Below, one piece after another: positions 41,441 through 64,000 of a stretch of 64,000 nt of DNA (position 1 is the first letter of the stretch; each line of letters begins with the position of its first letter). The stretch spans positions 35,086 through 99,085 of the forward strand of contig CAKQHH010000004.1 of the NCBI GenBank assembly GCA_934234035.1. Direction: 5' to 3'. A program made the translations under genes and the position numbers. This DNA comes from an uncultured Clostridia bacterium. GTDB taxonomy: Bacteria; Bacillota; Clostridia; Peptostreptococcales; Anaerovoracaceae. The notes below the pieces were generated by a model, which did no database searches, was not told the DNA's origin, and saw only the letters and a program-made list of their open reading frames with translations.

Positions 41441-41870
41441 GGCAGGACGTGGTGCCTCACTCCCCGCTAACCCTTATTCTTTCGTCGCCGGGCACCACGG
41501 CTTCCGGGTCCGGCGGAGTTTCCGCCGGCAGGACGTGGTGCCTCACCCCCCGCTAACCCTTATTCTTTCGTCGCCGGGCACCACGGCTTCCGGGCCCGAC
41601 GGGGTTTCCGCCGGCAGGACGTGGTGCCTCACTCCCCGCTAACCCTTATTCCTTCGTCGCCGGGCACCACGACTTCCGGGTCCGGCGGGGATTCCGCCGG
41701 CAGGACGTGGTGCCTCACTCCCCGCTAACCCTTATTCTTTCGTCGCCGGGCACCACGGCTTCCGGGTCCGGCGGAGTTTCCGCCGGCAGGACGTGGTGCC
41801 TCACCCCCCGCTAACCCTTATTCTTTCGTCGCCGGGCACCACGGCTTCCGGGCCCGACGGGGTTTCGACA
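41441..41870 (+). repeat. Tandem hairpin array A: five units of 86 bp
   Basis: Units start at 41441, 41527, 41613, 41699 and 41785, exactly 86 bp apart. Each has CGTGGTGCC and GGCACCACG arms (41448-41456 and 41491-41499 in unit 1) around a 34 nt loop containing CCCCGCTAACCCTTATTC and TTCGTCGCCG. The 28-30 nt linker holds a second palindrome (CCGGCGGA-GTT-TCCGCCGG), so an alternative hairpin in the other phase is possible. Units 1-2 and 4-5 are near identical, indicating a 258 bp block duplication. The array fills the gap between two convergent genes. Confidence 0.93.
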
Positions 41871-41873
41871 ATG

Positions 41874-41932
41874 AAAGAAACAGGCAAACAATAACTGAAT
41901 GATAAATTCGGTTATTACCTGCCTGTTTCTTT
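41874..41932. terminator. Long hairpin, bidirectional terminator
   Basis: AAAGAAACAGGCA (41874-41886) pairs perfectly with 41920-41932, and an inner AATAAC...GTTATT stem extends it. T-rich sequence follows on both strands. It sits between array A and the end of apbE. Confidence 0.75.
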
Positions 41933-42028
41933 TGTGTTTGGAGCTGTCTTATTTGTTGTTAATGCGACAGCCCCCTTATTGTTGTATCAAAATCTCCAAG
42001 AAAAAGAAGAAAGTCCCTTTGGAGTGGG

Positions 42029-43066
42029 TTATTCTGCCTCGAAATCCATCCCCTCGGTGGTGGATGTTTTGTCGTCTTTTCCGTAGAATGCGGCTTCGAT
42101 GCCCTTCTGGCTGTCGATGAATTTCTTGGCCGCTTTGGTGCCCTTCATGAGGCAGATGGTGCTCATGGCGTCGGTGTCCATGGAGGAATTCTTGGTGGTG
42201 ACCAGGCTCACCGCCTCCAGGTCCGTATCCACCGGGTAGCCGGTCTTCGGGCTGAGAATGTGGTGATAGCGCTTTCCCTTGTATTCAAATTGGCGCTCGT
42301 AAATGCCGGAGGTAACCACCGTTCCTTCGCCGATGTGGGTGCGGCCGATGATTTCCTGGCGGTCGGAGAACGGCTTCTCGATGCCGATGGTGTACTCCGA
42401 GCCGTCCGGTTTCGTGCCGACGGTGACGATGTTTCCTCCCAGGTTAATAACCGCGGAGGTCACGCCCTCTTTCTTCAGCACTTTACGCATCTCATCTCCC
42501 ACGTACCCCTTGGCGATGCCGCCCAGGTCAATCTTGGCTTCCGGGTCCAGCAGGCGGATTCGGTTGCCGTCCACCTCCACATTCCGGTAATCCACGTGCC
42601 GGAGTGCCTCCTGCAGCTTGACTTCATCCGGAAGCTTTGGTTTGTCCGCATGGAAATCCCAGAGGTCCGTCACCCGTCCGATGGTGATATCGAAAGCACC
42701 GCCGGACAGTTTGCCGTAACGGAGTCCTTCTTTTATGACAGTCGCCGCATCCTTTCCCACCGTCACCCAGGCGCCGCCGGAACGGTTCACCTTGGTCACG
42801 TCGCTGGAGTCGGTCTTGTTGCTCAGGAGCTTGTCCAGCTCGCGGCACCGGTCGTAGGCTTTCGTGATGGCCGCGTTGGCCTTGTCTTCGTCCAGGCCGC
42901 CGTCAATCTGATAGACCGAAACGCTGCAGGTGGTATCCAGGAAATAGTTGTCCTGGGTGACCGGTTCAATATCCGAGTTACTATTGCAACCGGTCTGTGT
43001 TATAATAATCAGAAGTGTGGCCAGAAGCGCCACGCCTTTCATTTTTTTAACGATATAATGGGTCAC
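42029..43066 (-). CDS. apbE: FAD:protein FMN transferase
   Basis: The 345-residue lipoprotein has a signal peptide with lipobox LIIITQTGC and then the ApbE domain: YFLDTTCSVSVYQ, LSGGAFDITIGRVTDLWDFH, KIDLGGIAKGYVGDEM, AVINLGGNIVTVGTKPDG and a late SMDTDAMSTICLMKG. ApbE attaches FMN to threonine residues of extracytoplasmic redox proteins such as RnfG or EET proteins. It faces, with a 51 bp divergent gap, a NusG-domain-II gene and a Gx gene, a neighbourhood known from flavin-linked extracellular electron transfer loci. Confidence 0.96.
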   Translation of the reverse strand: MTHYIVKKMKGVALLATLLIIITQTGCNSNSDIEPVTQDNYFLDTTCSVSVYQIDGGLDEDKANAAITKAYDRCRELDKLLSNKTDSSDVTKVNRSGGAWVTVGKDAATVIKEGLRYGKLSGGAFDITIGRVTDLWDFHADKPKLPDEVKLQEALRHVDYRNVEVDGNRIRLLDPEAKIDLGGIAKGYVGDEMRKVLKKEGVTSAVINLGGNIVTVGTKPDGSEYTIGIEKPFSDRQEIIGRTHIGEGTVVTSGIYERQFEYKGKRYHHILSPKTGYPVDTDLEAVSLVTTKNSSMDTDAMSTICLMKGTKAAKKFIDSQKGIEAAFYGKDDKTSTTEGMDFEAE

Positions 43067-43117
43067 GGGGTATCCTTTCTGTTGCCTTTATATAAATAAT
43101 AATTACGAAGGAGTTCT

Positions 43118-43495
43118 ATGTTCAAAGGAATCATACGCAAAGCGGATATTCTTCTGGCCGGGGTGCTCATCCTGATTGGGGTGGCGGCGTCTCTTTGGAT
43201 TTCGCAATTCGATACGTCCGGAAGCCGGGTCATCATAAAAACAGACGGCAAGGTATACGGCAGCTATTCCATTTCCGAGGACCGCACCGTTACGGTGAAG
43301 CAGGGGGAGAAAACCAACACGGTTCGAATTCACGACGGGGAGGTTTCCGTTACCCACGCAAGCTGTCACAACCAGGTATGCGTCAAGCACAAAGCCATTC
43401 ACACCACCGGGGAGAGCATCATCTGCCTGCCCAACAAAGTGGTAGTTCAGATTCAGGGAAAAGGAGGCGATGAATACGATGCCATTTCCAGCTAA
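43118..43495 (+). CDS. NusG domain II-containing protein
   Basis: The 125-residue protein has one N-terminal membrane helix (about residues 8-28, ADILLAGVLILIGVAASLWI) and an extracellular beta domain with SGSRVIIKTDGKVYGSYS-like strands and HASCHNQVCVKHKAI, holding two close cysteines, and CLPNKVVVQIQG. This is the NusG_II family, which includes the EetA-like protein of electron transfer loci. Ribosome binding site AAGGAG. The downstream gene overlaps its end. Confidence 0.88.
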   Translation: MFKGIIRKADILLAGVLILIGVAASLWISQFDTSGSRVIIKTDGKVYGSYSISEDRTVTVKQGEKTNTVRIHDGEVSVTHASCHNQVCVKHKAIHTTGESIICLPNKVVVQIQGKGGDEYDAISS

Positions 43496-44018
43496 ATCCA
43501 AGGGAACATCTTCTCGCCGTACCGCCGATTCCCGAACCGGCAACGTGGCCACCATCGCTTTGCTGGCCGCACTGGCGCTGATATTTTCCTACGTGGAAGC
43601 TATTATACCATATAATCCGGGGGTTCCGGGCATCAAACTTGGAATTGCCAACATCGTTGCGCTGGTGGCGCTGTATCGGCTTTCCGCGAAACATGCGGCA
43701 GCGGTGAACGTCATTCGAATCCTCATCGCCGGTCTTCTGTTCAACGGTGTCTTCGGCGCCCTCTACTCTCTGGGCGGCGCAGCGGTCAGCCTTCTGGGAA
43801 TGATCGTCCTGAAGAAGACCGACAAATTCAGCATTGCCGGAGTCAGCATGGCCGGAGGCGTGCTGCACAACATGGGACAGCTCCTGGTGGCCGCCCTTCT
43901 GCTTCAGGACAGTAAAATTTTCCTATACTTTCCGGTGCTCCTGTTCTCCGGAATGATTGCGGGCATCGTCATCGGCCTGGGGGCCGCGGTGATCTGCCGC
44001 CGACTGGAACACCTTTAG
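43479..44018 (+). CDS. Gx transporter family membrane protein (heptaprenyl diphosphate synthase component I-like)
   Basis: I chose the ATG at 43479, 11 bp from GGAGG; an ATG at 43470 is too close to that site. The ~179-residue protein has five or six helices and the family features IPYNPGVPGIKLGIANIVALVALY and NVIRILIAGLLFNGVFGALYSLGGA. Despite the heptaprenyl-synthase name, the fold is that of a small ECF-like membrane protein, and relatives (EetB-like) occur beside NusG-II and ApbE genes. It overlaps the NusG-II gene by 17 bp. Confidence 0.85.
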   Translation: MPFPAKSKGTSSRRTADSRTGNVATIALLAALALIFSYVEAIIPYNPGVPGIKLGIANIVALVALYRLSAKHAAAVNVIRILIAGLLFNGVFGALYSLGGAAVSLLGMIVLKKTDKFSIAGVSMAGGVLHNMGQLLVAALLLQDSKIFLYFPVLLFSGMIAGIVIGLGAAVICRRLEHL

Positions 44019-44117
44019 ATAATGGGCTTTGCACAGTTTATGCTCGCCCGTATTATATTTTTTAGTTGTTAAACACAATTATTTAAAAATTCTAATTGGT
44101 ATATTTAGGATTTTTTG

Positions 44118-44312
44118 TTGACTTATCCAATGGAATGTTTCATAATACTAATTGTAATTCACCAATTACTCGTGCTTTTCGATTGAGACAGGTTCTTTTT
44201 CTTCTCCTTTACCTTACCTGTTTCCTGTTTCGATCTTAGATAAAAGTAACAGCACATGACATTACCGAAAGAGCCTGCAGCAACGGGATATGCTGCAGGC
44301 CCTTTTATTTTT
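44118..44312 (+). ncRNA. Candidate small RNA with own promoter and terminator
   Basis: TTGACT (44118-44123), a 17 bp spacer and CATAAT (44141-44146) form a promoter whose transcript would start near 44153. About 120 nt later a strong terminator stands: GCCTGCAGCA (44273-44282) with TGCTGCAGGC (44291-44300), then CCTTTTATTTTTTTATT. No plus-strand coding sequence lies between. The RNA could also fold GAGACAGGT with ACCTGTTTC. Alternatively the terminator simply ends the Gx transcript. Not similar to an RNA family I can name. Confidence 0.5.
44273..44312 (+). terminator. Strong terminator in convergent gap
   Basis: A perfect 10 bp stem (arms 44273-44282 and 44291-44300) is followed by a long T-rich tract. 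It ends the candidate small RNA and/or the NusG-II/Gx transcript. Confidence 0.9.
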
Positions 44313-44321
44313 TTATTCCAT

Positions 44322-45512
44322 TCACATCGGTCCCTTGCGAAAACCTCGATATGAAAGGGCAACAGTCGGAATCAGCAAAAAGCTGTAAAGCGCTATGAGC
44401 AGCGCACTCTGGCTGCACACGATATTTCCAAGCTGATACATGCACGGAAGGTTTATATTCTCCGGAACATGAAACAACCGATCCGGCATCAGCATTCGAA
44501 AACTCTCGAACGCATCATTTCCGGCCAACAACGGGAGACCCGCAAACAGAAGGAACGAAATGCTCATTGCGGAAATTGCGGATTTTGTCCTCACAAAGAG
44601 GAGCATGGCAATTCCCGCCGAAAACAGGCATGCCACATAGCCCGAAAGCAGAATCAACAGATACCGTTCCAGAAAATTTATCCCGTACATGCTGTAAGGA
44701 GATTCCGTCTGAATGGGCGCAAAGGCGCCGCTTGTGCCCATTCCGCCAAAGGATATCAAGGACATCAACAGCATGCCGCTCCAGTAGAGCAACGTTGCAA
44801 TGATAAATACCGCAAGAATCTTTGCGGCGGCGCCCCTTGTCGGTCCGTACTTCGTGGAGTAGTAGACGAAGCGGGACTCGCTGTCCATCTCGTCCGAAAA
44901 AACGCCTACCGTTAAAAACGATATCACCAAAACCAGCAGCAAGCCATATGCAGCCGCAAACGGTCCCGTTATTCGGAAGGCATCGAAGGGTTCATACTCC
45001 AACGGCGTCCGCACCTTCGCAAACTGTCTCTTCAAATATTCTTTTTTTGCTGCGGTAGTTCCGTATTCATTAATCAAAGAATCGATGTTCTCTTTTCGCA
45101 GTTCGTTCAGCCTTCCGGCGGTTTCGAGCGAAACCTGATTAATCGCATCCGGATTGTAGTCGGTTCTGTAACACAGCGTTTGATTGATAAACTCTTCGAT
45201 GTCCCGATAAGACTGGCCGATTCTTCCGTACACCGGATTGGGGCCGTTGCTTTTATTTTTGCCCTCTATATTTTGCTGCTTTTTAACAACTTCAAGCAGT
45301 ACAGAATCCGTCAGCGGTCCGTTCCATCGGCTTTTATCTTTCGTAAGCGCTCCGGGCGCCGCAAGACCCCGATGGCTCGCCCCCGCTTGGTCCACATAAT
45401 AAACGCTCCAAACGGCGAAACCGGAGAGAAGGATTCCTGCAATCAGTGCGGTGATGATTATTTTGATATGCAGCGGTTTCAATATCACTTTTTTTAATTC
45501 GTATCCCAGCAC
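44322..45512 (-). CDS. ABC transporter permease
   Basis: The 396-residue membrane protein has an N-terminal helix (about residues 18-42), a long extracytoplasmic region to about residue 180, then five or more helices, as in ABC-2 type export permeases (FSDEMDSESRFVYYSTKYGPTRGAAAKILA is the typical cytoplasmic coupling stretch). It pairs with the ATPase encoded just upstream, whose end overlaps its start by 19 bp. Last gene of the sigma-factor operon. Substrate unknown. Confidence 0.85.
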   Translation of the reverse strand: MLGYELKKVILKPLHIKIIITALIAGILLSGFAVWSVYYVDQAGASHRGLAAPGALTKDKSRWNGPLTDSVLLEVVKKQQNIEGKNKSNGPNPVYGRIGQSYRDIEEFINQTLCYRTDYNPDAINQVSLETAGRLNELRKENIDSLINEYGTTAAKKEYLKRQFAKVRTPLEYEPFDAFRITGPFAAAYGLLLVLVISFLTVGVFSDEMDSESRFVYYSTKYGPTRGAAAKILAVFIIATLLYWSGMLLMSLISFGGMGTSGAFAPIQTESPYSMYGINFLERYLLILLSGYVACLFSAGIAMLLFVRTKSAISAMSISFLLFAGLPLLAGNDAFESFRMLMPDRLFHVPENINLPCMYQLGNIVCSQSALLIALYSFLLIPTVALSYRGFRKGPM

Positions 45513-46393
45513 CGTCGATCCTCCTGCATGCCAAACTGATAAAAAAACGCATCTTCCAATGACACGTCCGTCAAAACGGCGCTTTCATGGGGCTTGTTCT
45601 CCGATATCACTCGAATTTCCGATACACTGCCTTCTTTTCGAACGTTTACAATACATCCGCCCTGCGCTGCAATGATTCCTTCCGCGTCCGAGTTTTCTGC
45701 TCTGCACATCCAAACTTTAATCGGTATCTGGCAGCAGATTTCGTTCACCGTCCCCCGGTTCACAATCTTCCCGTCTTTCATTATAAACACTTCACCGGCA
45801 ATCGTTTCCAGATCGGAAACGATATGGGAGGAAAGAAGGACGATTTTGTCTTCTGCCAAACCGGAAATCAGGTTCCGAAAATGAATCCGTTCCATCGGAT
45901 CTAAACCGACGGTGGGTTCGTCCAATATCAGGATTTCCGGATCGTTAAGCATGGCCTGAGCGATTCCCACACGCCGTTTCATTCCGCCGGAAAGATTCTT
46001 CATTTTTTTGGAAGCGCATTCTGTCAGGCCAACCGACTTTAGCAATTCCGCAATTTTTTGTTCGGAAAACCGCTTCGGAAGGCCCTTTAATGCGGATATG
46101 TACCGCAAGTAGTTCCTTACGCTGAAATCCGGATAATAGCCGAACTCCTGCGGCAGATAGCCGATTTTATCCCGATACCTCGCACCCATTTCCAGGATAT
46201 TCTCTCCCTCAAAGTAAATTGCCCCGGACGTTGGCGCAGTCACGGTGCAAATCATTCTCATAAGGGTGGTTTTTCCCGCACCGTTCGTGCCGAGCAGCCC
46301 ATACAGTCCCTTTTGCATTCTTAGGGAGATATGGTCTGCCGCAGCAACCCCGTCATATTCTTTTACTACATTATCCACTATGAGTTCAGCCAT
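45494..46393 (-). CDS. ABC transporter ATP-binding protein
   Basis: A 299-residue ATPase of the CcmA/bacitracin-export type: Walker A LLGTNGAGKTTLMRMI, signature MKNLSGGMKRRVGIAQAML, Walker B ILILDEPTVGLDP, and the switch His in VLLSSHIVSD. The C-terminal ~80 residues form the extra domain common in two-gene exporters. It is coupled to the membrane protein gene before it (shared base at 46393) and the permease gene after it. Likely exports or senses a peptide or lipid-targeting compound. Confidence 0.93.
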   Translation of the reverse strand: MAELIVDNVVKEYDGVAAADHISLRMQKGLYGLLGTNGAGKTTLMRMICTVTAPTSGAIYFEGENILEMGARYRDKIGYLPQEFGYYPDFSVRNYLRYISALKGLPKRFSEQKIAELLKSVGLTECASKKMKNLSGGMKRRVGIAQAMLNDPEILILDEPTVGLDPMERIHFRNLISGLAEDKIVLLSSHIVSDLETIAGEVFIMKDGKIVNRGTVNEICCQIPIKVWMCRAENSDAEGIIAAQGGCIVNVRKEGSVSEIRVISENKPHESAVLTDVSLEDAFFYQFGMQEDRRCWDTN

Positions 46394-47157
46394 TATAATA
46401 CCTCCCAGCCGGTTCGCCGTTCATGCAGCAATCGATAATTGAGAAGAAGGATGATTGCGAATCCGAGGGCAAACATTCCTCCCCATATTGCCGGAGTAAT
46501 CCGATTGTATACGGTATCGTTCATCGTCACCGCCATCCAGCCGGCATTCGCACCCAGACATAGCGTCGCCGCAAGGAGTTCGCTGATTTTTTTATGAAAG
46601 GACAGCGAACCTAGGCACAGTATTGTAGAAATCATAACCGGGAATATAAGCTGCTTCAAAATGTCTGTAATCAGGCACTGCTGTGCATGTACCGCGGCAA
46701 TCCCGAACAGGGATAACAGTACAATATCGACAAAACCGAAGGACAGAATCTTCGCCCCGTAAACGTGCCGCAGCGTGTAATAGGAGGCTTCTTCAATTTC
46801 CATCGACCTCGTTTCCCGGTTTTTCCATAATTCCGGTATCGTCAGTATCACAAACAAGGCCCCCACAATGCTCATGCCTCGCTGGGCATACCACGACGTG
46901 CCGATACTGTTCAAAGCGGTCCAAGCAAGAAACAGCACCGCCCCTTGCAATACCCACCACTGTTTTTTAATCAGTCGCATTTGAAGGAGCAGGAAGTCCA
47001 AATAGTTCACTCGCTCGGATGCCTGCTGCTTCGCCACGATATGCTGCGCCAAGCGGATGGTTTCTTCCATTGCCGCAGTGCCGCATTGATCCCTCTCCGC
47101 ATTTTTCTTATATTCCGATGCTGCGTTCTTTATCATGCGATCTATTTCATTCCCCAT
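46393..47157 (-). CDS. Membrane protein of unknown function, possible anti-sigma partner
   Basis: The ATG at 47157 has GGAGGGGG upstream, giving ~254 residues. Residues 1-70 are soluble and contain a conserved-looking EETIRLAQHIVAKQQ segment; about five or six helices follow (WWVLQGAVLFLAWTAL, MSIVGALFVILTI, ILSFGFVDIVLLSLFGI and others). It starts 2 bp after the sigma-factor stop codon, the position where anti-sigma factors are usual, but it lacks a recognisable zinc anti-sigma motif. It could equally be a transporter subunit. Confidence 0.65.
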   Translation of the reverse strand: MGNEIDRMIKNAASEYKKNAERDQCGTAAMEETIRLAQHIVAKQQASERVNYLDFLLLQMRLIKKQWWVLQGAVLFLAWTALNSIGTSWYAQRGMSIVGALFVILTIPELWKNRETRSMEIEEASYYTLRHVYGAKILSFGFVDIVLLSLFGIAAVHAQQCLITDILKQLIFPVMISTILCLGSLSFHKKISELLAATLCLGANAGWMAVTMNDTVYNRITPAIWGGMFALGFAIILLLNYRLLHERRTGWEVL

Positions 47158-47159
47158 TT

Positions 47160-47699
47160 TTACCCCCTCCATCCGGATTCTTCTAAAAAACCTCGAATCA
47201 GTTCTCGGCCGCGCCGCAATCGGTACTTGCAATTCGGCAAGGAAATCCCGCAGATTTGCGCAATTTCCTTGACCTTTTTTTCTTCAAAATAGTATAACAA
47301 AATAACATCTCTTATTTCTTCCGGCAGCCGTTCCACCGCTTCTGTTATTGCATTCGCATCTTCTTTTGCTTCCAAACCGCAGCTTGTTTCTGCTTCCGCG
47401 GTATCCATCACCGCATCCAGCGCAACCTCCGTGTTGCGTTTTCGCTTTTTTTCGTCGTTGCATTTGTTTCTGGCCAAAGTATACAGGTAATTCAGGAGTT
47501 TTCCCTCATGCTTGTAATTCGGAAGTGTTTTAAAAAACGTCAGGAACGTTTCCTGTGCCAAATCTTCCGCCGTATGCCGATCCTTTAAATGACAGATACA
47601 GTAATTCAATATCGTATCGTAATATTTTCGGACCAGGATATCTACCGCTTGAGGATCCCCCTTCTTTGCCCGTCGAACCAGAAAAAAATCTGAATTCAT
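47160..47699 (-). CDS. ECF-type RNA polymerase sigma factor
   Basis: I take the ATG at 47699 behind GGAGGAAG, giving 179 residues. Region 2 is seen in FLVRRAKKGDPQAVDILVRKYYDTILNYC and DRHTAEDLAQETFLTFFKTLPNY; region 4 in AVERLPEEIRDVILLYYFEEKKVKEIAQICGISLPNCKYRLRRGRELI. Such sigma-E-type factors direct transcription of a small regulon, often of their own operon. It leads a four-gene set with a membrane protein and an ABC exporter, typical of envelope stress or peptide resistance modules. Confidence 0.93.
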   Translation of the reverse strand: MNSDFFLVRRAKKGDPQAVDILVRKYYDTILNYCICHLKDRHTAEDLAQETFLTFFKTLPNYKHEGKLLNYLYTLARNKCNDEKKRKRNTEVALDAVMDTAEAETSCGLEAKEDANAITEAVERLPEEIRDVILLYYFEEKKVKEIAQICGISLPNCKYRLRRGRELIRGFLEESGWRG

Positions 47700-47781
47700 A
47701 AGTGCTTCCTCCGATATTCTCTCTCCATAGAATAACAATAGCAAATGCAGCCGGCAACCGATAAATTGAAAATTATCTATT

Positions 47782-48447
47782 TTAAATCCGATACATTCGT
47801 CCGTCTTCGATGGTGTAATTCTTTTTGGCGATTTTTCTAAAATCATCGTCATGACTCACCACCACCACGGTTTTCCCTTTCCGATTCAGTTCCAAAAGAT
47901 TTCTCATTACGATTTCCTTATTCTCTCGGTCCAGCGATCCGGTGGGTTCATCCGCCAACAAGATATCGAAGGGTTTTATCAGGTTTCGTGCCAGCGCAAC
48001 CCGCTGTTGCTCTCCGCCGGAAAGTTCGAATATCTTGGAATTCATTTTGTCGGCTACCCCAAGGTGTGTCAGCGCTTCTTCCATTGCTCGTGTTTTGTTC
48101 TTCACGCGGGCATACCGCAGCGCCAACAGCAGATTCTCCTTCACGGTCATTTTTTCCACCAACGCAAAGTTCTGAAACAGATACGCGATTTTATATCTTC
48201 TCAACCTCTCACTTTTCCTTCGATCCTTCACCGGGTTATCCACAGAAAAACAACGCAGCGTACCGGAGTCATACGTTTCCAACGTCCCCATAATGTTCAG
48301 CAGCGTGGATTTTCCGCCACCGCTTTTTCCGTAAATGCAGATAAAATCCCCCGGATAAATTTCCATACTGATTCCGTCCAGAATTTTTCTGCTTCCATAG
48401 GCTTTCTCGATGTCCTTTAATATTATTTGCGCTGAATTTTCATGCAT
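47782..48447 (-). CDS. ABC ATPase of the lactococcin-972 locus
   Basis: A 221-residue ATPase of the MacB/LolD type: Walker A IYGKSGGGKSTLLNIMGTLE, signature FELSGGEQQRVALARNLI, Walker B ILLADEPTGSLDRENKE and switch His VVVSHDDDF. It starts exactly where the DUF1430-type membrane protein gene ends, and such a pair is the standard companion of lactococcin-972 bacteriocins, presumed to export the peptide or give immunity. The gene is more AT-rich than the chromosome around it. Confidence 0.92.
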   Translation of the reverse strand: MHENSAQIILKDIEKAYGSRKILDGISMEIYPGDFICIYGKSGGGKSTLLNIMGTLETYDSGTLRCFSVDNPVKDRRKSERLRRYKIAYLFQNFALVEKMTVKENLLLALRYARVKNKTRAMEEALTHLGVADKMNSKIFELSGGEQQRVALARNLIKPFDILLADEPTGSLDRENKEIVMRNLLELNRKGKTVVVVSHDDDFRKIAKKNYTIEDGRMYRI

Positions 48448-50607
48448 TTAGCAGCCCTCCTTCAGTCTCTCCCCGATATTCTTTTTATCGCGTCCCAGCT
48501 TTATGATTTCACCGATAAAGCAAATGCTTAATACCGCAACCCCCGCCATCACAGCGATTTCGGTTTTGACCATTGTCCAGCCCGCTCTCGGCGCATACAG
48601 GCTTAGAAAGTTCATTTTCGGATATGCTTTTAGCATGCCGATGAACAACCCCAAACTGATTCCATATCCAATTCCGCTTTTGAGAAGTCTTTTTCCGTGA
48701 ACGCTCACGAACCCGTATCCCAGCAGATAGGACACATCCAGCCGTCTCCCGTGATGGTACAAATACGACTCCACGTCGATTTTTACGACAAATGCGATAA
48801 TCAGCAACAGGAGCATAAAAGCAATTGCGTTTACGGCCGCCTCTGTCCGTATTTCTTCTATCTGAAACATCACATCATCGTATACGCTGCTGATCCATAA
48901 AACATATGGATCGGCCTGCGCGTGAGTAATTGTGCGTTTCAGTTCGCCGTACGCGTTTGCGGAATTCTTTACACGGGGATGGAAGTATCCGTTTACCAGA
49001 GATGGCAGCTTTATGCTTCCGGTCGGTTTCAGACTGCCTCCGTCCACCAGGATGAGCGTGTAATCTTGAAGCCATGCCTCTTCCAAACGCATGGAGGAAT
49101 CACAGGTCATAAAACTCTGACCCTCTTTTATCGGCATGAGCTTCACAGCCGGAGCTTTTTTCTTGCTCCATTCATCTCGCTGCGTTTCTTTTATCTTTTC
49201 GATATCGTCTTTTGTCGGTTTATTTTTCTCCGGGTACAGGATCAGCCATTCGTCGTCGCGAAGGGTCGGAATGTCCGGTTTCTTGCCATCCGGTGCTGCC
49301 GGTGAAGCGAATTCCATATAGTTTTTATTGACGTACGCGTACCTTCCGCCAAAGGGTTCGGCCGCATCGGATTCGACCGGTACCCCTTCTTTTTCCGCAT
49401 TCGGCGCGAAAAACAAAATAGCGCCCTCCCGGTCCAGTTCGTTCCACAGCCGATTTAATTTTGGGACAACGACTTCATTAAACTTGTCGTCATCCTCTAC
49501 GTACGTCCACGGCCACCCACAAGAAATATTGACGTAATTCACAGACTTGCGCCATTCCGGCATATGCCGCTCCACATCCTTGAAATCCTGAAAACCGGCA
49601 ATCGTCACCGCCCCCAGCAGCAGGGTTCCCGCACAGATTACAATCTTCATTCCGATTGCCGTTTTCTCTCGATTCGGCCGCTTGCCTTTTAACGCCGGCG
49701 CTATGCCGTACCGTTTGAACTTCCATACGATAATTGCAAATTCCAATATGAAGAAAAATGCGGCTGCCGCCCCGACCGCCAGGTATACGCTCTTCGTCGC
49801 CGAAAGGAAGCCGCAGACCGTTTGCAGCTGCACGACATACATCAGCGCTCCGCTGATGATCGGAACCGCAATCAGCAGCGGTGGAATCACCAATCTTGCG
49901 GCTTTGGTTGCTGCGAAATGGGTGCTCTTCCAGCCGATCAGCCCGGCAACGGCGAGCTCTTTCGTCAACTGCCCATTGTATATCGCATAGCAGAAGAGAA
50001 TTGCGGCGACCATAATTGCCAGAATGGTTAAATACAAAAACAGTTGGTTTTCAGTTGTATCGCTAGCTACAGTTTCCGAAGAATCTACGGTCGCCTGAAC
50101 TCCCATGTTCTCGTCACCGGTCAGTTCTTTCAGAAACGCTTCCGTATCTTCTTTTGTTCCGCGAAAATAGTAATCGCCGTTAAAGTTATTGCTGTTGATT
50201 TTCGAAAACGGCAATAGGCTTACTTCCTTCGAAGTGAGGAATGTCGCCCCCTTCGCATTCTTGAATTCGTTCGTCCCGTGAATATTTCTTTGAAAAGAAA
50301 TATTCGGAAATGCCTTTTCAAACCATGCCGCATCGTTCAAATAGACAAATATCGAAATCTGCTGCCTTTCATTCCGTTGATTCCGTGGAATCCGCCGAAC
50401 CTTAATAAAACTCATGTTATGCTTTTGAGCCAGTTCCTGCAGCTTTGTCCTATTGTTTTGCGTCCGTTCCGGTGATGATACAATGTTGACTGTGGTATCA
50501 AACTCATTCGTAAAAGTCTTCAGAAACATATCATCTTGGTTATACGAAACACCAAAGGCGACGGTTACGATGAGAATCACCAGCATTGTCTGTATTATCT
50601 TTTTCAT
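48448..50607 (-). CDS. DUF1430 bacteriocin-associated integral membrane protein
   Basis: The 719-residue protein has an N-terminal helix, a large extracellular region (about 30-190), three helices near 195-310, a second extracellular region (about 340-600) and three final helices, the layout of the seven-helix bacteriocin-associated membrane family (DUF1430) related to FtsX/MacB permeases. It lies between the bacteriocin gene and the ABC ATPase gene and probably forms the membrane half of that transporter, acting in export or self-protection. Confidence 0.9.
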   Translation of the reverse strand: MKKIIQTMLVILIVTVAFGVSYNQDDMFLKTFTNEFDTTVNIVSSPERTQNNRTKLQELAQKHNMSFIKVRRIPRNQRNERQQISIFVYLNDAAWFEKAFPNISFQRNIHGTNEFKNAKGATFLTSKEVSLLPFSKINSNNFNGDYYFRGTKEDTEAFLKELTGDENMGVQATVDSSETVASDTTENQLFLYLTILAIMVAAILFCYAIYNGQLTKELAVAGLIGWKSTHFAATKAARLVIPPLLIAVPIISGALMYVVQLQTVCGFLSATKSVYLAVGAAAAFFFILEFAIIVWKFKRYGIAPALKGKRPNREKTAIGMKIVICAGTLLLGAVTIAGFQDFKDVERHMPEWRKSVNYVNISCGWPWTYVEDDDKFNEVVVPKLNRLWNELDREGAILFFAPNAEKEGVPVESDAAEPFGGRYAYVNKNYMEFASPAAPDGKKPDIPTLRDDEWLILYPEKNKPTKDDIEKIKETQRDEWSKKKAPAVKLMPIKEGQSFMTCDSSMRLEEAWLQDYTLILVDGGSLKPTGSIKLPSLVNGYFHPRVKNSANAYGELKRTITHAQADPYVLWISSVYDDVMFQIEEIRTEAAVNAIAFMLLLLIIAFVVKIDVESYLYHHGRRLDVSYLLGYGFVSVHGKRLLKSGIGYGISLGLFIGMLKAYPKMNFLSLYAPRAGWTMVKTEIAVMAGVAVLSICFIGEIIKLGRDKKNIGERLKEGC

Positions 50608-50660: not shown

Positions 50661-50680
50661 CTTTATTGTTCAACGGATTG

Positions 50681-51157
50681 TTACTTCACATCTGCCCATG
50701 CTTTGTTTCCGGTTTTCGCTTTCTCCCAAGATGCGGCTGCCTGCTTTCCTTTTCCGACCCATCCGGAATAGGAATACTTACCGCCTGCTCCTTTTACGGT
50801 TGTTTTATGCGTCTTCTTAGAGTGGTTATATTTCGACCACACGTGTTTCGAGTTCACACCGTGTCTCCACTTTCCGCCATAAAAATCCTTCCATCCGCTG
50901 TCATAGGAACCCTCTCTTGCAAGGTTTTCGCTGTTAATGGTCACTTCGTAACCGAGTCCTTCTACATATGTGCACCCCAACGTGTCGCTTGCCGGGTTAT
51001 CCAAATCCACTTCATATCCGAGTTCCGGGTCGTACAGCATATCCTGCGGCGGTACATCCGACGATGACACATCCTGCGGCGCATCCGCAAATACCCCCAC
51101 CGAAGCCATCAGCATTAAACCACTTACCATCGTTACCGTAATAATTTTCTTAAGCAT
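50681..51157 (-). CDS. Lactococcin 972 family bacteriocin precursor
   Basis: The 158-residue precursor has a signal peptide (MLKKIITVTMVSGLMLMA...VFA, cleavage near residue 25) and a C-terminal ~65-residue domain with YGGKWRHGVNSKHVWSKYNHSKKTHKTTV and GKYSYSGWVGKGKQAAASWEKAKTGNKAW, the characteristic aromatic- and glycine-rich lactococcin-972 domain. Lactococcin 972 binds lipid II and blocks septum formation. Between them lies an unusual acidic segment of ~65 residues with two LGYEV copies. Ribosome binding site AAGGAGG and promoter at 51195-51222. Confidence 0.92.
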   Translation of the reverse strand: MLKKIITVTMVSGLMLMASVGVFADAPQDVSSSDVPPQDMLYDPELGYEVDLDNPASDTLGCTYVEGLGYEVTINSENLAREGSYDSGWKDFYGGKWRHGVNSKHVWSKYNHSKKTHKTTVKGAGGKYSYSGWVGKGKQAAASWEKAKTGNKAWADVK

Positions 51158-51222: not shown

Positions 51223-51288
51223 AAAGGATAGTCTAAAAATAAAAAAATGTAGATTTTTTCTCCGCCGCCGGCAGAGGACGCCCGGCGC

Positions 51289-51570
51289 GAACTTGGTGCA
51301 CGAAAAACCGCTACCCCTTGTGCTTCCGTTTCCTTTGCACCAAGTTCTCGAGCGGATTTCGCAGGCGCCCGGCGCACACTTGGTGCACGGAAATCCGCTA
51401 TCCCTTGTTATTCCGTTTCCTTTGCACCAAGTTCCCGAGCGGATTTCGCAGGCGCCCGGCGCACACTTGGTGCACGAAAAGCCGCTACCCCTTGTTATTC
51501 CGTTTCTTTTGCACCAAGTTCTCGTGAGGTTTCCGCCGGAATTCGGCGCGAACTTGGTGCTCAATTTGTA
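51289..51570 (+). repeat. Tandem hairpin array B: three full units of 87 bp plus a partial one
   Basis: ACTTGGTGCA arms start at 51291, 51378, 51465 and 51552, exactly 87 bp apart. In unit 1 the 12 bp arm 51289-51300 pairs perfectly with 51336-51347. The 35 nt loop carries CCGCTAxCCCTTGTTATTCCGTTT, related to the loops of arrays A, C and D although the stem is different. Frames stay open through the array on both strands because 87 is a multiple of three; I do not consider them genes. Confidence 0.92.
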
Positions 51571-51641
51571 AAAGTCTCCACTACTATGGATACATTATAA
51601 GAGATGACTCCAATTCTGGGTATTTTCAAGAAATCGGTAGA

Positions 51642-51684
51642 AATTGACGACGACCCCCTCCTCCCCGCGCTTTCGTCGTCAATT
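51642..51684. repeat. Single hairpin with ATTGACGACGA stem (1)
   Basis: The 12 bp arm AATTGACGACGA (51642-51653) pairs perfectly with 51673-51684. The 19 nt loop contains CTCCTCCCCGCGCTT, similar to the CTCCCCGC loop start of the arrays. Confidence 0.85.
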
Positions 51685-51831
51685 CCCACGCGTCCGCTTG
51701 GTAGATTAGAGTTATATGCCCGGAGGAGGGGGTAGGATAAGGTCTTGGAATCAGAAAAACTGGGTTGTAAGAAGTGATTTCAAGCCTGGGTTCGACTTTC
51801 ATTAGTGCTCCATACGTGAAGAAATTATTAG

Positions 51832-51872
51832 ATTGACGACAGTTTGTCCGAAACAAAGGGACTGTCGTCAAT
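51832..51872. repeat. Single hairpin with ATTGACGAC stem (2)
   Basis: ATTGACGACAGT (51832-51843) pairs perfectly with ACTGTCGTCAAT (51861-51872), 17 nt loop. Same ATTGACGAC start as hairpins at 51642 and 51923. Confidence 0.85.
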
Positions 51873-51922
51873 TTTTGGTGGTGTAGAATGCAGATTAGAG
51901 CAGAATGTCCGAGCAGAAGATT

Positions 51923-51969
51923 AGAATTGACGACGAAAGGTAGAAAAGAGCGAGTTCGTCGTCAATTCT
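51923..51969. repeat. Single hairpin with ATTGACGAC stem (3)
   Basis: AGAATTGACGACGAA (51923-51937) pairs perfectly over 15 bp with 51955-51969, with a 17 nt loop. This is the longest perfect stem of the region. Confidence 0.88.
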
Positions 51970-52037: not shown

Positions 52038-52060
52038 TTCAGACGAGCGCAGCCGGGCAT

Positions 52061-52480
52061 GTTGGCGCCGCCCTCCCCGCGAAGCCTTATTCCTCCGTCA
52101 GGCCACGCCAACACGGCCCGGATTCTCCCGGGCGGACGCCGCCTTTGTTGGCGCCTCCCTACTCGCTGCGTCTTATTCCTCCGCCTCGTCACGCCAACAC
52201 GGCCCAGTTTTTCCCGGACGGTCGCCGCCTTTGTTGGCGTCCCCCTCCCCGCGAAGCCTTATTCCTCCGCCTCGCCACGCCAACACGGTCCGACTTTTCC
52301 CGGGCGGTCGCCGCCTTTGTTGGCGTCTCCCTCCCCGCGAAGCCTTATTTCTTCGCCTCGCCACGCCAACGCAGGCCGACTTTTCCCGGGCGGTCGCCGC
52401 CTTTGTTGGCGTCCCCCTCCCCGCTGCGCCTTATTCCTTCGCCTCGCCACGCCAACACGGCCCGGGAATTTTCTGACACG
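52061..52480 (+). repeat. Tandem hairpin array C: five units of 86 bp
   Basis: GTTGGCG arms start at 52061, 52147, 52233, 52319 and 52405, exactly 86 bp apart. Each pairs with CGCCAAC about 44 bp later (52233-52240 with 52277-52284 in unit 3). The ~36 nt loop carries CTCCCCGCGAAGCCTTATTCCT and CCGCC, clearly related to array A although the stem differs. Linkers hold a second small palindrome (CCCGG...CCGGG). Not coding. Confidence 0.92.
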
Positions 52481-55085: not shown

Positions 55086-55152
55086 TGCAATAGTCCTCCC
55101 TTGCTATTTTGTTTGCTTTATTTCACGGGCGAATCGCCCGCCGTTCTCGATT

Positions 55153-56915: not shown

Positions 56916-56952
56916 AGCCGTTCCTCTTTCCTCAAAAACCATATAAAGCCCC

Positions 56953-57024: not shown

Positions 57025-57038
57025 GTCGCATGCTCTGA

Positions 57039-57171
57039 CCATCTTCTTTCATCCAGACTATACTGTCGGCTTCGGAATTTCACCGAATCATGCGGTTTTC
57101 CGGAACTCCGTCCCCTGGAAAACGCTCGCGGGCTGTACCGCCGGTGGGGAATTGCGCCCCGCCCCGAAGAT
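57039..57171 (-). promoter_or_regulatory. FMN riboswitch (RFN element)
   Basis: The minus strand begins ATCTTCGGGGCGGGGC, continues with AATTCCCCACCGGCGGTA, AGCCCGCGAGC, GATTCGGTGAAATTCCGA and AGCCGACAGTATAGTCTGGA, and closes with GAAAGAAGATGG, whose AAGAT pairs with the 5' ATCTT. All six-helix-junction consensus blocks of the FMN aptamer are present. It controls the ribD operon, repressing it when FMN is high. Confidence 0.98.
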
Positions 57172-57229
57172 TTTAAATTGACACTGTTATTATACTACAT
57201 CCCGGCCAAAAGTAAAGATTGTATTTTCC

Positions 57230-58330: not shown

Positions 58331-58404
58331 AGTGTCCTTTTTTATTGTATTTTAAAATTTATTATACCAGGTGTATAAATAATATCAATGATGCGCAAGG
58401 GGTC

Positions 58405-58461
58405 TCATTGGGAAGAATATGGTATAATGACTCGATTTATACCCTCAAAATAATTTGAGGG
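58405..58461 (+). promoter_or_regulatory. Extended -10 promoter and 5'-UTR hairpin of the surface protein gene
   Basis: TGGTATAAT (58420-58428) is an extended -10 sequence without a clear -35 box. The 5' leader of about 110 nt contains the palindrome CCCTCAAA (58442-58449) with TTTGAGGG (58454-58461) close to the expected start of the RNA. Confidence 0.6.
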
Positions 58462-58548
58462 ATGGGTGGTATGATTTCGTCCGCCTCGGAAGCGGATGGA
58501 TTGTACGTATGTTTTTTTATTATAATCCAACAAGGGGGTATTGCCACA

Positions 58549-60672: not shown

Positions 60673-60695
60673 CTCCAGCTTCACACATGTGCACA

Positions 60696-60732
60696 GAAAA
60701 ACTCCCGATCCGAGCGGACCGGGAGTTTTTCT
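60696..60732. terminator. Bidirectional terminator
   Basis: AAAAACTCCCG (60697-60707) pairs with CGGGAGTTTTT (60720-60730). It ends the surface protein gene and the converging lipoprotein genes. Confidence 0.9.
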
Positions 60733-60768
60733 TATTATTCATCATTTATTCTCCCAATTATTCATCAC

Positions 60769-61137
60769 TTAATCTCCCATCAGCTTGCCCGTCGGGCTCA
60801 TGCTGGAAGGGGTATACTTGCCGTTTTCATCCGCCTTGAACAGCACGTGCAGGCGGGAATTTTCATCCGGGCCCGGGAAGTCCACCACCAGGTATCCTTC
60901 TCCCCAGCTTTCGGTGGATTCCTCGTCCTCCACATACTTCACCCCCAGGAACTGTTCCATTTCCTCCGGCGTCAGTTCGTACCACTTGGTCTCCCGCAGC
61001 TTGTCGTACTGCTCCTTGGTCACGGTGGCGTTTGGATCGATGCCATCGTCTTTTTTCTTATCGTCTCCACCCCCGCAGGCGGCCACGGAGAAGCACATCA
61101 TCAACGACATCACCACCGTCATTATCTTCTTTTTCAT
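60769..61137 (-). CDS. Small lipoprotein of unknown function
   Basis: The 122-residue precursor has a lipoprotein signal peptide with lipobox FSVAACGGGDD (Cys about residue 21). The mature part is short and acidic, with KEQYDKLRETKWYELTPEEMEQFLGVKY and GYLVVDFPGPDENSRLHVLF. I do not recognise a family. It follows the larger lipoprotein gene by 11 bp and is probably co-transcribed. Confidence 0.75.
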   Translation of the reverse strand: MKKKIMTVVMSLMMCFSVAACGGGDDKKKDDGIDPNATVTKEQYDKLRETKWYELTPEEMEQFLGVKYVEDEESTESWGEGYLVVDFPGPDENSRLHVLFKADENGKYTPSSMSPTGKLMGD

Positions 61138-61148
61138 ATCCGTACCTC

Positions 61149-62555
61149 TTATTTCTTCTTTACACAGGAATAGCCGATACTCTTTTCATCATCGGATCCG
61201 AACTGTCGCGGTCCCATGAAATTCTCCCCGGAGGACTTTGTAATCCAAATTTCGCCGTTGCTGTATATTGCATAGAATTCAAAACCGGCGCTGTTCTTCT
61301 CCGCAAACTTGTCCCATTCGCTGAACTTCGCGAAAACGAATCCTCCCGGCGCCCCCACCAGGTTCTTCGGCGTCACGTAGAAATCGTACAGGAACGCGTC
61401 CTTCTCCGCCTTCTCCTGTCGGCCCGAGTACATATCGATTCGGCAGATGTACTTCATGTCCTCTCCGCTGCCCGGAGTGTAGAAGTAGAGAAAATCATCG
61501 CACAGCATCGGTCCGTAGGATTTCACATCCGAAATCTTCTTGTCCTTGCCGTTCTTCAGATTGTACACGTGAAGCGTTTCGCCGTCTTCATCGTCCTGGT
61601 AGATGAGGAATTTCGAGCTCACCCGGTACGGGAAGAAGGTCTTCTTTTCCAGGATGGTTTTCTTGTTTTTGCCGTCGAAATCGATTCGGCAGTAGTGGTT
61701 TTTCTCGTCGGTAAAGAAAATCCCGTCTTTCGTCACCTGCAGATAATCGCAAGTCCCGGTGTACAGCGTCTCCACCTTGGTTTTTCCGACTTCTGCTTTT
61801 ATAATCTTCTTCCGGTCCAAAATGCCGTAGACGGCGCCATCGTATACGGTCAAGCAGCCCGCCTTGGCATCTTTCGCCAGAACCTTTCTGTTCTCCACCT
61901 TGCTGCCGTTAATCTTGCCGACAGTGAAAGCGCCTTTGCCCCACTTCTTGCCGCCGTAATCGCCGTACAGCAGGCCGTCCGCTGCCACAAACCGGCCTTC
62001 CGAAACGAAATTACTCATGGCATAGACTTCCTCGTCACTCAAAGTGACGTCCCAGCCGTCCATAATCCGGGATTTCTTTCCCAGGTATTTCATGATGAAT
62101 TCCATTTCCATGGTCATGTCCTTGCCGTCGGACTGATAGGTGTCCTCGGAGCGGATGATCAGTTTTTCCCCATCCAGCTTCGCGGTCATGCTTTCGCCCT
62201 CTTTTTCTTGAGCACCGGAGAGGGAAATCTTGTAGGTTTTGTCCTTCTTCTTGGTCCAGGCCGCGCCGTTCTCATCGTCCATCATGGCGATGTACGCCGC
62301 ACCGTCACTGTATGCGCTGAACTTCAACACTTTGGAGAAGTCTTCCCCGAAAATGGTTTTGACGGAATCCTTCTTCATTTTCTTTCCATTGTCGGTCACT
62401 TCGATGTCCTCGCATTCCCAGCTGCCGATAATGGTAATTTCCTTTGCTTTTTCTTTATCGGAAGTCTTTCCGTTGTCCTTTCCGCCTCCGCCGCATCCTG
62501 CAAATGTGAAACACATTCCGAGTACGAGAGCGGCTGCCAGTATCTTCCTTTTCAT
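61149..62555 (-). CDS. Lipoprotein with beta-propeller-like repeats
   Basis: The ATG at 62555 follows AAGGTGG and gives 468 residues. The lipobox is FTFAGCGGGG (Cys about residue 20). Residues 40-170 look like a ligand- or sensor-type domain. From about 190 on, repeats such as GAVYGILDRKKIIKAEV, DGIFFTDEKNHYCRIDFDGKNKKTIL and SKFLIYQDDEDGETLHVYNLKNGKDKKI resemble the DUF5050-type beta-propeller found in clostridial surface lipoproteins. Function unknown. Confidence 0.78.
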   Translation of the reverse strand: MKRKILAAALVLGMCFTFAGCGGGGKDNGKTSDKEKAKEITIIGSWECEDIEVTDNGKKMKKDSVKTIFGEDFSKVLKFSAYSDGAAYIAMMDDENGAAWTKKKDKTYKISLSGAQEKEGESMTAKLDGEKLIIRSEDTYQSDGKDMTMEMEFIMKYLGKKSRIMDGWDVTLSDEEVYAMSNFVSEGRFVAADGLLYGDYGGKKWGKGAFTVGKINGSKVENRKVLAKDAKAGCLTVYDGAVYGILDRKKIIKAEVGKTKVETLYTGTCDYLQVTKDGIFFTDEKNHYCRIDFDGKNKKTILEKKTFFPYRVSSKFLIYQDDEDGETLHVYNLKNGKDKKISDVKSYGPMLCDDFLYFYTPGSGEDMKYICRIDMYSGRQEKAEKDAFLYDFYVTPKNLVGAPGGFVFAKFSEWDKFAEKNSAGFEFYAIYSNGEIWITKSSGENFMGPRQFGSDDEKSIGYSCVKKK

Positions 62556-62645
62556 CGTCGCCACCTTCTTTTCTGTTCGGTCATCTCTCGTGCTTTAACG
62601 GAACTGCTGCATTGTCCCCGTATTTATTCTGCCGGAGGACAATGG

Positions 62646-62690
62646 GGTTAGAAAAAGCCATAAACCGCCATCCGGCGATCTATGGCTGCG
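62646..62690 (-). terminator. Terminator of the upstream lipoprotein gene
   Basis: On the minus strand AGCCATA and TATGGCT pair around a GC-rich inner part (CGCCGGATGGCG), followed by TTTTTCTAA. It lies just beyond the stop codon at 62694. Confidence 0.8.
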
Positions 62691-62693
62691 GAC

Positions 62694-63173
62694 TTACTTG
62701 GTGATATCGATTTCCATGGAGTCGGTTTCGTCCCCTGCGAGATTCGCGAATTCTGCTTTTACCGGACTCTTGAGGCTGCGCAGCTTGCCGGTGGTCTTCA
62801 CCTCTAAGGATTTCCCCGGTTCCACATCGGTTCCCTTCGCGTCGTCTACGGCATCGTAGGTATCCTTCACGAACACCGTGCTGTTCTCCAGCTTTTCCCC
62901 ATCCTGGGTCAGTGCATAGTCAAACGCCCATGTAAAGGATTTCGCTTCCTCTCCGTTGTTGGTGTACTCCCAGGTCACCACAATGGCGTCGTCTTCATCG
63001 CTGTCCTTTACAATCTCATAGCCTTTGAATTCCGCCTTGTAATCCCCAATCTGCATCACGTTGGGATCGGATTTCTCACTTTTCGTACTTTCGGAATCAC
63101 CGCCGCCTCCGCCGCATCCTGTGAAAGAAAACATCAGCAGCAACGAAAGCATCAGCATTACTATCTTTTTCAT
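62694..63173 (-). CDS. DUF5067/DUF4352-type lipoprotein
   Basis: The ATG at 63173 follows GAAGGTGAG and gives 159 residues. The lipobox is FSFTGCGGGGG. The mature domain (about 40-159) has GDYKAEFKGYEIVKDSDEDDAIVVTWEYTNNGEEAKSF and VEPGKSLEV, the immunoglobulin-like pattern of DUF5067 and DUF4352 proteins, which are secreted and of unknown function. It has its own terminator and leads the group of three lipoprotein genes. Confidence 0.82.
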   Translation of the reverse strand: MKKIVMLMLSLLLMFSFTGCGGGGGDSESTKSEKSDPNVMQIGDYKAEFKGYEIVKDSDEDDAIVVTWEYTNNGEEAKSFTWAFDYALTQDGEKLENSTVFVKDTYDAVDDAKGTDVEPGKSLEVKTTGKLRSLKSPVKAEFANLAGDETDSMEIDITK

Positions 63174-63298
63174 GTCGCTCACCTTCTCTCGAAATGATTC
63201 TTTCGAATCTCGGGTGCGATAACGGTTTTGTGTAAAACATACGAAGTACTTCTTGCTTGTGAGAGTATTTTACCAAGTTCACGCCGGCGGAACATCAC

Positions 63299-63397
63299 CC
63301 GAAAGGGTATTTTTCGGGGTCTTCCCTTTTTCGTGGCCTCGAGTGCCGTATTAAAAAGACGAGCCTCCGGGGGGCTGGGGCGGCAGCGGCCCGGAGG
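63299..63397. repeat. Hairpins in front of array D
   Basis: CCCGAAA pairs with TTTCGGG near 63299-63319, and CCTCCGG (63364-63370) with CCGGAGG (63391-63397). Both are short stems in the non-coding leader between the lipoprotein gene and array D. Confidence 0.4.
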
Positions 63398-63409
63398 ATG
63401 TCAGGGGGG

Positions 63410-64000
63410 CGTGGTGCTTCACCGCCCGCAAACCCTTATTCCTTCGTCGTCGAGCACCACGTCCTCCGAGCTAAACAGGGTTTCAGCGGCCCGGGCGTGG
63501 TGCTTCACTCCCCACAAACCCTTATTTCTTCGTCGCCGGGCACCACGTCCCCCGATCTAATTGAGTCTTCAGCGGGCCGGGCGTGGTGCTTCACCGCCCG
63601 CTAGCCCTTGTTCCTTCGTCGCTGGGCACCACGTCCCCCGAGCCAAACAGGCTTTCAGCGGCCGGGGCGTGGTGCTTCATCGCCCGCTAGCCCTTATTCC
63701 TTCGTCGCCGAGCACCACGTCCCCCGAGCTAGATGGGCCTTCAGCGACCCGGGCGTGGTGCTTCATCGCCCGCTAGCCCTTATTCCTTCGTCGCCGGGCA
63801 CCACGTCCCCCGAGCTAGATGGGCCTTCGGCGACCTGGACGTGGTGCTTCACCGCCCGCAAACCCTTATTTCTTCGTCGCCGGGCACCACGCCCCCGAGC
63901 TAATTGAGTCTTCAGCGGCCGGAGCGTGGTGCTTCACCGCCCGCTAGCCCTTGTTCCTTCGTCGCTGGGCACCACGTCCCCCGAGCCAAACAGGCTTTCA
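63410..64000 (+). repeat. Tandem hairpin array D: seven units of 86 bp, continuing past the window
   Basis: CGTGGTGCT arms start at 63410, 63496, 63582, 63668, 63754, 63840 and 63925, 86 bp apart except for one 85 bp step. Each pairs with G/A-GCACCACG about 42 bp later. The loop contains CCCGCTAGCCCTTATTCC and TTCGTCG, as in array A. Linkers vary more than stems and loops. The array covers the last 590 bp of the window and is not closed. Confidence 0.93.

Follow-up and report, generated by a model that had tools for sequence, protein, structure and literature searches.

Whether the palindromic repeat arrays of bacterial chromosomes are functional or are mobile debris is an old question. It is posed here by a stretch of 64,000 nucleotides (hereafter, the window) from contig CAKQHH010000004.1 of an uncultured Clostridia bacterium, in which four tandem arrays, A to D, are built from units of 86 or 87 bp. 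Each unit has a pair of inverted arms, and its loop contains the core CCCGC-NARN-CCTTATTC-YTYCG. In a preliminary description of the window, the arms were taken for the stem of a hairpin and the units were thought to be under selection for that fold. The analysis presented below points in another direction. In our judgement there is about an even chance that these are extragenic arrays akin to the bacterial interspersed mosaic elements (BIMEs), working as duplex DNA and presenting phased half-sites to a putative binding protein.

A family of tandem repeats in Mogibacterium

Tandem Repeats Finder (TRF) confirmed the four arrays and their period (86, 87, 86 and 86 bp). Array A (41430..41866, + strand; period 86, 5.1 copies, five 86-bp units) has arms of family I (CGTGGTGC/GCACCACG) and sits between convergent genes for an ECF-type riboflavin transporter and an ApbE-family protein. 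Array B (51279..51560, + strand, with the TRF end at 51524 or 51560) is made of three 87-bp units and a partial one with arms of family II (CTTGGTGCA/TGCACCAAG), and array C (52060..52465, + strand; period 86, 4.7 copies) of five 86-bp units with arms of family III (TGTTGGCG/CGCCAACA). Array D (63407..64000, + strand; TRF 63407-63990/64000) again belongs to family I, has period 86 and 6.8 copies, and counts at least seven units, being cut by the end of the window. The 20 full units that could be aligned are all on the + strand, and TRF puts the identity among units within an array at 85-94%. That the arrays share a loop core is borne out by the pattern CCCGC-NARN-CCTTATTC-YTYCG-NC, found at 41463..41486 (+ strand) in the first A unit, which is matched exactly at 10 places in the window and nowhere in 100 dinucleotide shuffles. 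The arms, each with its complement, read CGTGGTGC in A and D, ACTTGGTGCA in B and TGTTGGCG in C. They do differ between arrays, as first described, but some relation is retained: T8, G9, G10 and G12 of the alignment do not vary among the 20 units. In 91 distinct units from more arrays, the column 8 pair is T-A without exception and the column 10 pair is G-C in 90.

An exact scan for the core across the genome collection returned 15 stretches, 12 of them in Mogibacterium kristiansenii and three with single matches in other taxa. The M. kristiansenii genome (G001, about 2.1 Mb) holds 249 core matches when as many as 2 mismatches are allowed, and the reversed pattern gives 20; 150 of its 1215 candidates were scored with a covariance model, and all 150 matched. 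In the genus, a broader model matched both of the two genomes, G001 and, with two matches, a congener (G033). Under filters stricter than those of the genus search, the first model matched the same two among 197 genomes of the family, and the broader model matched G001 and none of the 392 other genomes of the order (1/393). A blastn search of the plasmid collection gave no match to array A, the exact core pattern was not found in the viral collection, and searches of an open library returned no title or abstract that deals with these repeats.

Iterated nhmmer searches of the stretches studied gave 314 matches, which form 55 groups; the window contributes 20 matches (4 groups), G033 one and G001 293. 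The G001 figure becomes 284 matches in 49 groups, five of them single-unit, after removal of nine matches (one group) counted twice through overlap between stretches; ten matches of the census are weak and lie mostly at contig ends. Six arm families can be told apart, each with its complement: I, CGTGGTGC; II, CTTGGTGCA; III, TGTTGGCG; IV, TTTGCTCCCC; V, GGTTCGCGC; and VI, GTTTGCGCC. An exact family arm is present in 308 of the 314 matches and missing in six, and TRF finds additional family V arrays missed by the model. A single recent duplication, which the preliminary description had entertained as an alternative to selection, does not agree with 49 groups in G001, six arm families and a congener with other arms.

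Spacing of the arms

Measured on the loop core, with the arms unused and the overlap between stretches counted twice, adjacent units are 86 (165 steps), 87 (56), 85 (7) or 88 bp (1) apart, and the longer or shorter steps amount to 95-96 (10), 107 (16), 117 (1) and 76 bp (1). Steps of 62 and 80 bp come from low-scoring edge matches at contig ends, which are taken for half units cut by an insertion sequence (IS). When the arms themselves were counted, with at most one mismatch per arm and the inner distance left free, both were found in 296 of 304 units, at an inner distance of 43 (223), 44 (72) or 37 bp (1). Seven of the eight units that failed this test are weak matches near contig ends and, as read here, adjoin the IS cut. 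The gaps between units on the same strand measured 43 bp in 206 cases, the others being of 33 (1), 42 (5), 44 (2), 45 (1), 49 (1), 52 (1), 53 (9), 64 (16) and 73 bp (1); the values 37 and 49 form a pair, due to a single unit with a doubled arm in L118 (L-numbers designate stretches from G001 or G033). A second arm count accepted exact arms in pairs 42-45 bp apart, so that the inner distance is set by construction, and took in more family V units and junctions. It returned gaps of 33, 42-45, 51-53, 64, 73 and 74 bp. Junctions between arm families fall at 33, 53, 64 and 74 bp and those between arrays on opposite strands at 51 and 53 bp, all of them near the ladder formed by the other spacings.

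The step of this ladder is about 10.4 bp. The fit of fifteen locus-level values other than 43 to a step of 10.5 bp was unmatched in 200,000 random sets, and ten values picked as separate events fall on a 10.5-bp ladder with P about 1e-4 relative to uniform spacing. Since the arms stand 43-44 bp apart within units and 43, 53 or 64 bp apart across spacers, a lattice on duplex DNA explains their arrangement and a hairpin does not.

Conservation of the arms within arrays

The stem had been thought free to vary in sequence; within arrays, it is not. We compiled a diversity profile, with no arm filter, from 294 distinct units in 47 arrays of G001 and the window. The two arms have mean diversities of 0.050 and 0.069. 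The profile, biased toward core conservation by the requirement for at least 10 of 21 core positions, gives means of 0.030 in CCTT, 0.068 in YCG and 0.098 in CCGC; the mean reaches 0.15-0.18 in the remaining loop and 0.25 in the spacer. The arms are less variable than the spacer in 46 of the 47 arrays. In six arrays of G033, with 3-9 units each, variation is 0-0.04 in the 3' arm and 0.06-0.28 in the remainder.

Arrays of the congener

Ten of the 11 tandem arrays (period 40-130) present in 402 kb of G033 contain an inverted repeat of at least 8 bp, the period being 74 or 75 in nine of them and 54 in the tenth. The identical filter applied to 266 kb from 20 other genomes of the family returned no such array and one tandem array overall. 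The arms in G033 (TTAACGAA, TTCACGAA, TTGACGGC, GGTGGCTCAG and TTGGCGCC) differ from those in G001, with the exception of TTGGCGCC, which resembles family III. Their spacings are 31 and 43-44 bp in three families, 30 and 43-44 bp in a fourth, and 31/23 bp in the fifth, from one exact pair. Geometry has thus mostly been kept while the arms differ. A further group in stretch L119, with GTGGTGGGA arms, is taken for the second model match of G033. It shows a nested symmetry (L119 1159-1663), three hairpins of the GTGGTGGGA type being enclosed in an outer inverted repeat, itself an extension of the arm found in the adjacent TTGACGGC array.

A proposed lattice of half-sites on duplex DNA

The features described so far can be accommodated in a simple scheme. 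A unit would be composed of two inverted half-sites of 7-12 bp, about four helical turns apart, and the half-site of the next unit would follow about 3, 4, 5, 6 or 7 turns further on, placing the half-sites on one face of the helix. An inverted lattice of this type is what a cooperative DNA-binding protein might be expected to require. A putative sequence-specific protein, acting as a dimer or higher oligomer, would assemble along the arrays to form an ordered nucleoprotein array, possibly with a purpose in local chromosome architecture or topology, and the arm families would reflect different or diverged binding proteins. The arrays, located mostly at the 3' ends of genes, would grow and shrink by tandem duplication, and their loop core would offer a landing site to an IS110-like element. 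One could go further, if tentatively, and envision a genus-specific satellite built as a half-site lattice in helical turns, in which each arm family has its own oligomerising protein, dozens of nucleoprotein fibres form at gene ends, and geometry is conserved as arms and proteins diverge between species. What bears on the old question of function is that spacing shifts by helical turns even as the units vary in length and sequence, and that a similar rule applies in a congener whose arms are mostly unrelated. If the binding protein exists, a lineage of gut Clostridia would have a new sequence-specific factor that organises the chromosome.

Several points weigh against the half-site lattice. 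The phase statistic draws on about ten spacings other than 43, whose independence was partly chosen by the author; spacing values are inherited within one family, and 45 and 51 match the ladder poorly. The test of six distinct periods (53.5, 74.5, 86.3, 96, 107 and 117), which gives P 0.00025 in favour of a 10.5-bp step, excludes the 41-bp array of G001 and its 65/66-bp array resembling clustered regularly interspaced short palindromic repeats (CRISPR), both of which are off the ladder. A rougher tally of adjacent arms, which also yields many short distances from chance arm matches in spacers, includes five off-ladder distances within the same family (30, 38, 48, 51 and 60); they trace to lone arms beside arrays or to the doubled arm of L118, and excluding them, like excluding the 37/49 pair, is the author's judgement. 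Inner distances in the GTGGTGGGA group of L119 are 37-38, and its units step by 95 and 86. Half-sites leave the asymmetric loop core unexplained, and the avoidance of promoters described below would be equally shown by neutral intergenic repeats. Furthermore, most comparable array positions of G001 are not common to G033. Among 66 pairs of matching open reading frames (ORFs) from the two genomes, antisense ORFs included, 19 are found no more than 400 bp from an array of G001. For arrays of G033 the count is 2, both already included in the 19; one has its arrays in different gaps, and the other has only one flanking gene in common. Finally, what has been observed is the geometry, the conservation and covariation of the arms, the genomic position of the arrays, their differences in copy number and the point of IS insertion; a binding protein and a purpose in local chromosome architecture or topology are inferred.

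Genomic setting, copy-number change and an inserted element

With genes called by codon usage (29 training ORFs), none of 54 arrays overlaps a predicted gene. The 27 arrays that have both neighbours within 1500 bp, some of which share a gap, are in convergent (13), tandem (13) and divergent (1) settings; the gaps of more than 100 bp in the studied stretches, array gaps included, are convergent in 19 cases, tandem in 59 and divergent in 27. The region of the window from 24428 to 52861 aligns with one G001 contig, its longest pieces being 94-96% identical and others 86-90%, which places the window in M. kristiansenii or in a closely related species; the contig is partly N and the comparison runs no further right than array C. 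About 4.2 kb of the window (44381-48638) is without a match on this contig. At the three orthologous loci, the window and G001 differ in the number of units: 5 versus 1 for array A, 3 versus 6 for B and 5 versus 6 for C.

Such differences would be expected of a selfish or neutral satellite, in which arms and core are the sites recognised by a process of amplification or recombination and serve no host function. This is the alternative that survives best, and we consider it possible, if doubtful. It fits with the adjoining of arrays of different families, with the intactness of arms in units and with the fact that one array is missing from the orthologous gap of the congener, the distance between the orthologous genes being about 150 bp in G033, without arrays, and about 1.1 kb in G001, with them. 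Even the spacing might be accounted for by tiny DNA circles, as ring closure would favour helical-turn lengths. However, junctions between families and between opposite-strand arrays (33, 51, 53, 64 and 74) are near the ladder too, a result not expected from the closing of a single circle, and the inner arm distance (43; 31 in G033) is likewise close to a whole number of turns. Nor does any enzyme looked for track the repeats, as the preliminary description had thought a transposase or reverse transcriptase might: the Y1_Tnp domain is found in neither of the two genomes and RVT_1 and IS110 in only one of them, in a search that did not extend to other recombinases and enzymes. Three candidate sources were rejected on these data. 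A mobile element of the type formed by repetitive extragenic palindromic (REP) sequences and RAYT finds no support, for its transposase domain (PF01797, Y1_Tnp) was found in neither G001 nor G033, with the control search positive in 5 of 14 known genomes; RVT_1, the mark of a reverse-transcriptase origin, has two matches in G001 and none in array-bearing G033; and PF01548, the IS110 domain, is likewise matched twice in G001 and not at all in G033, a distribution that speaks against IS110 as the maker of arrays.

An IS does insert into the arrays. At contig ends of G001, two kinds of element end are joined to array cores, and 11 of the 13 junctions fall at one point of the loop core, with CC to the left and CTTRT to the right, in families I, II, III and VI, two being elsewhere. 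Inside the repeat core, the element has CT at both ends. One of the 11 junctions, at L074 128-142 (G001), belongs to a second element, whose interior differs although its end sequence and its insertion point in the core are identical. The reading frame of the element starts MNRILKIGMDVHS, 25 residues that we take to be IS110-like; they have no match in Pfam. Tags from both element ends were located at contig ends only, and the internal body was thus not observed. The IS110-like element is more likely a user of the arrays than their builder.

Other repeats are found in the neighbourhood of arrays. An associated element of about 340 bp, rich in palindromes (TTGACGAC...GTCGTCAA), occupies the interval between arrays B and C (51623..51968, without assigned strand), with copies at L077 4394-4826, L101 12073-12417 and L114 18244-18577; the copies are about 72-75% identical, and several adjoin arrays at G001 loci. 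In L084 (about 900-1790, G001), adjacent arrays of families III and V are apparently enclosed by an inverted repeat (ATTCCGAGC/GCTCGGAAT). L101 (137-1974, contig C9 of G001) carries an array of period 66 that resembles a true CRISPR array, its palindromic repeat being 33 bases long and its spacers variable. In the window, a Lactococcin_972-type bacteriocin domain (50681-51157) adjoins array B, and the gene next to it (48448-50607) encodes 719 amino acids with no Pfam match. Far to the left, a dispersed repeat of about 300 bp (1388-1741) has several matches of 66-73% in G001, and positions 3449-3563, which match several G001 contigs at their ends with 91-93% identity, perhaps belong to a multi-copy, assembly-breaking element.

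Covariation of the arms and the hairpin

That stem partners change together, as had been noticed in the four arrays of the window, holds for the family at large. In a set of 92 units, of which 91 are distinct and to which each group supplies one or two, pairing holds in 90.8% of stem cells. Both-sided changes affect 204 cells, compared with 70.5 in shuffles; covariation scores 0.510, compared with 0.177 for shuffles and at most 0.146 when the stem is slid out of register. The number of pairs with any both-sided change is not above shuffles (132 of 500 reach the count), nor is the number of pair types (197 of 500). Families inherit their arms, which leaves few independent covariation events. 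In repeated DNA, moreover, covariation of a "stem" can stem from symmetric half-sites, without any folding.

The same data can be viewed as the signature of a structured RNA, or of an extruded or single-stranded DNA hairpin with a conserved loop, that would be the functional form of the units. The superiority of the in-register stem over any slid one and the conservation of both stem and loop core agree with this idea, as does the B unit, which as DNA folds at z about -4.4 whichever strand is taken, a stability that none of 200 shuffles reached. We nevertheless find it unlikely. The tested units of A, C and D, as DNA, give z of -1.4 to -2.7, and the consensus fold amounts to an outer stem around a loop of 34-36 nt. 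Among the 546 cells of the six core pairs (columns 7-12), two are wobbles and one is unpaired. In tandem settings, the strand of the array does not track that of the genes (same in 5, opposite in 8). Rfam at gathering score has no match at the arrays, its matches in the window being a tmRNA, an FMN riboswitch and one tRNA. The helical spacing, too, is left unexplained. Large loops closed by an outer stem only, rare wobble and the ladder all make hairpins less likely; as arms are conserved in sequence and the spacing across spacers fits a duplex lattice, the proposed selection for the fold is not upheld, and the hairpin is probably not the working form of the units.

A guide-RNA array of the TIGR-Tas stem-loop or CRISPR type is very improbable: similar-looking tandem stem-loop arrays are described for TIGR-Tas in the part of the report compared (PMC12045711), but here the units of an array are alike (85-94% by TRF) and have no unit-specific 8-12 nt spacers, the spacers within an array being variants of one or a few types (judged from the two commonest per array and the diversity profile), the family is dispersed in 49 groups, and the Nop domain (PF01798) is found in 0 of 2 genomes, with a model that may miss Tas proteins.

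Comparison with known repeat systems

The half-site lattice can be set against systems already described, with the reservation that the likenesses drawn below rest on selected passages of the cited papers. TIGR-Tas arrays share with ours the tandem stem-loops with palindromic parts (PMC12045711); ours differ in the lack of unit-specific guides and of a Nop-domain match (subject to the limit of the model just given) and in their genome-wide dispersal. A second parallel concerns the inserted element. IS621, a member of IS110, targets REP elements with a CT core (PMC11208160), much as the element with an IS110-like start inserts at CT within one conserved repeat core here; the IS uses the array as a target, with no sign that it builds it.

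The likeness to REP sequences extends to the arrays themselves. BIMEs are made up of REPs set at regular intervals with their orientation alternating. The proteins that bind them are gyrase for BIME-2, IHF for the sequence between the REPs of BIME-1, and DNA polymerase I for the REPs themselves (PMC2817692). Cleavage by gyrase is a further mark of BIME-2. Like BIME-2 of E. coli and the REP clusters of Xanthomonas, the present repeats are extragenic, palindromic and in more than 100 copies, are found mostly in convergent or unidirectional gaps, and are targets of insertion sequences. They also share regular spacing, alternating orientation and tandem clustering (PMC2817692; PMC3733652; PMC1525189), the arms here alternating at 43-44 bp inside units and at near-ladder distances between them. 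The building blocks are different. REP units are palindromes of 20-40 bp, most of them tagged with GTAG or CGTC, whereas the arms here are 7-12 bp long and 43 bp apart. REPIN/RAYT systems have a Y1 transposase (TnpA-REP), whose domain was not found in the two genomes, as noted above. CGTC-tagged REPs, similarly, appear to have no dedicated transposase (PMC3733652), but their stem is 8-9 bp long, their loop in most cases 4-5 bp, and they form mostly head-to-head dimers, in contrast to 86-bp tandem arrays. Unlike REPs, our units recur with a period of mostly 86-87 bp and enclose a long conserved core in a loop of about 34-36 bp; the spacing ladder, for its part, is not mentioned in the BIME/REP passages compared. 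Because layout and position are like those of BIMEs while unit structure and, as tested, transposase are unlike, the repeats are not members of the REP family; REP/BIME arrays are the closest kind, from which these are set apart by their geometry.

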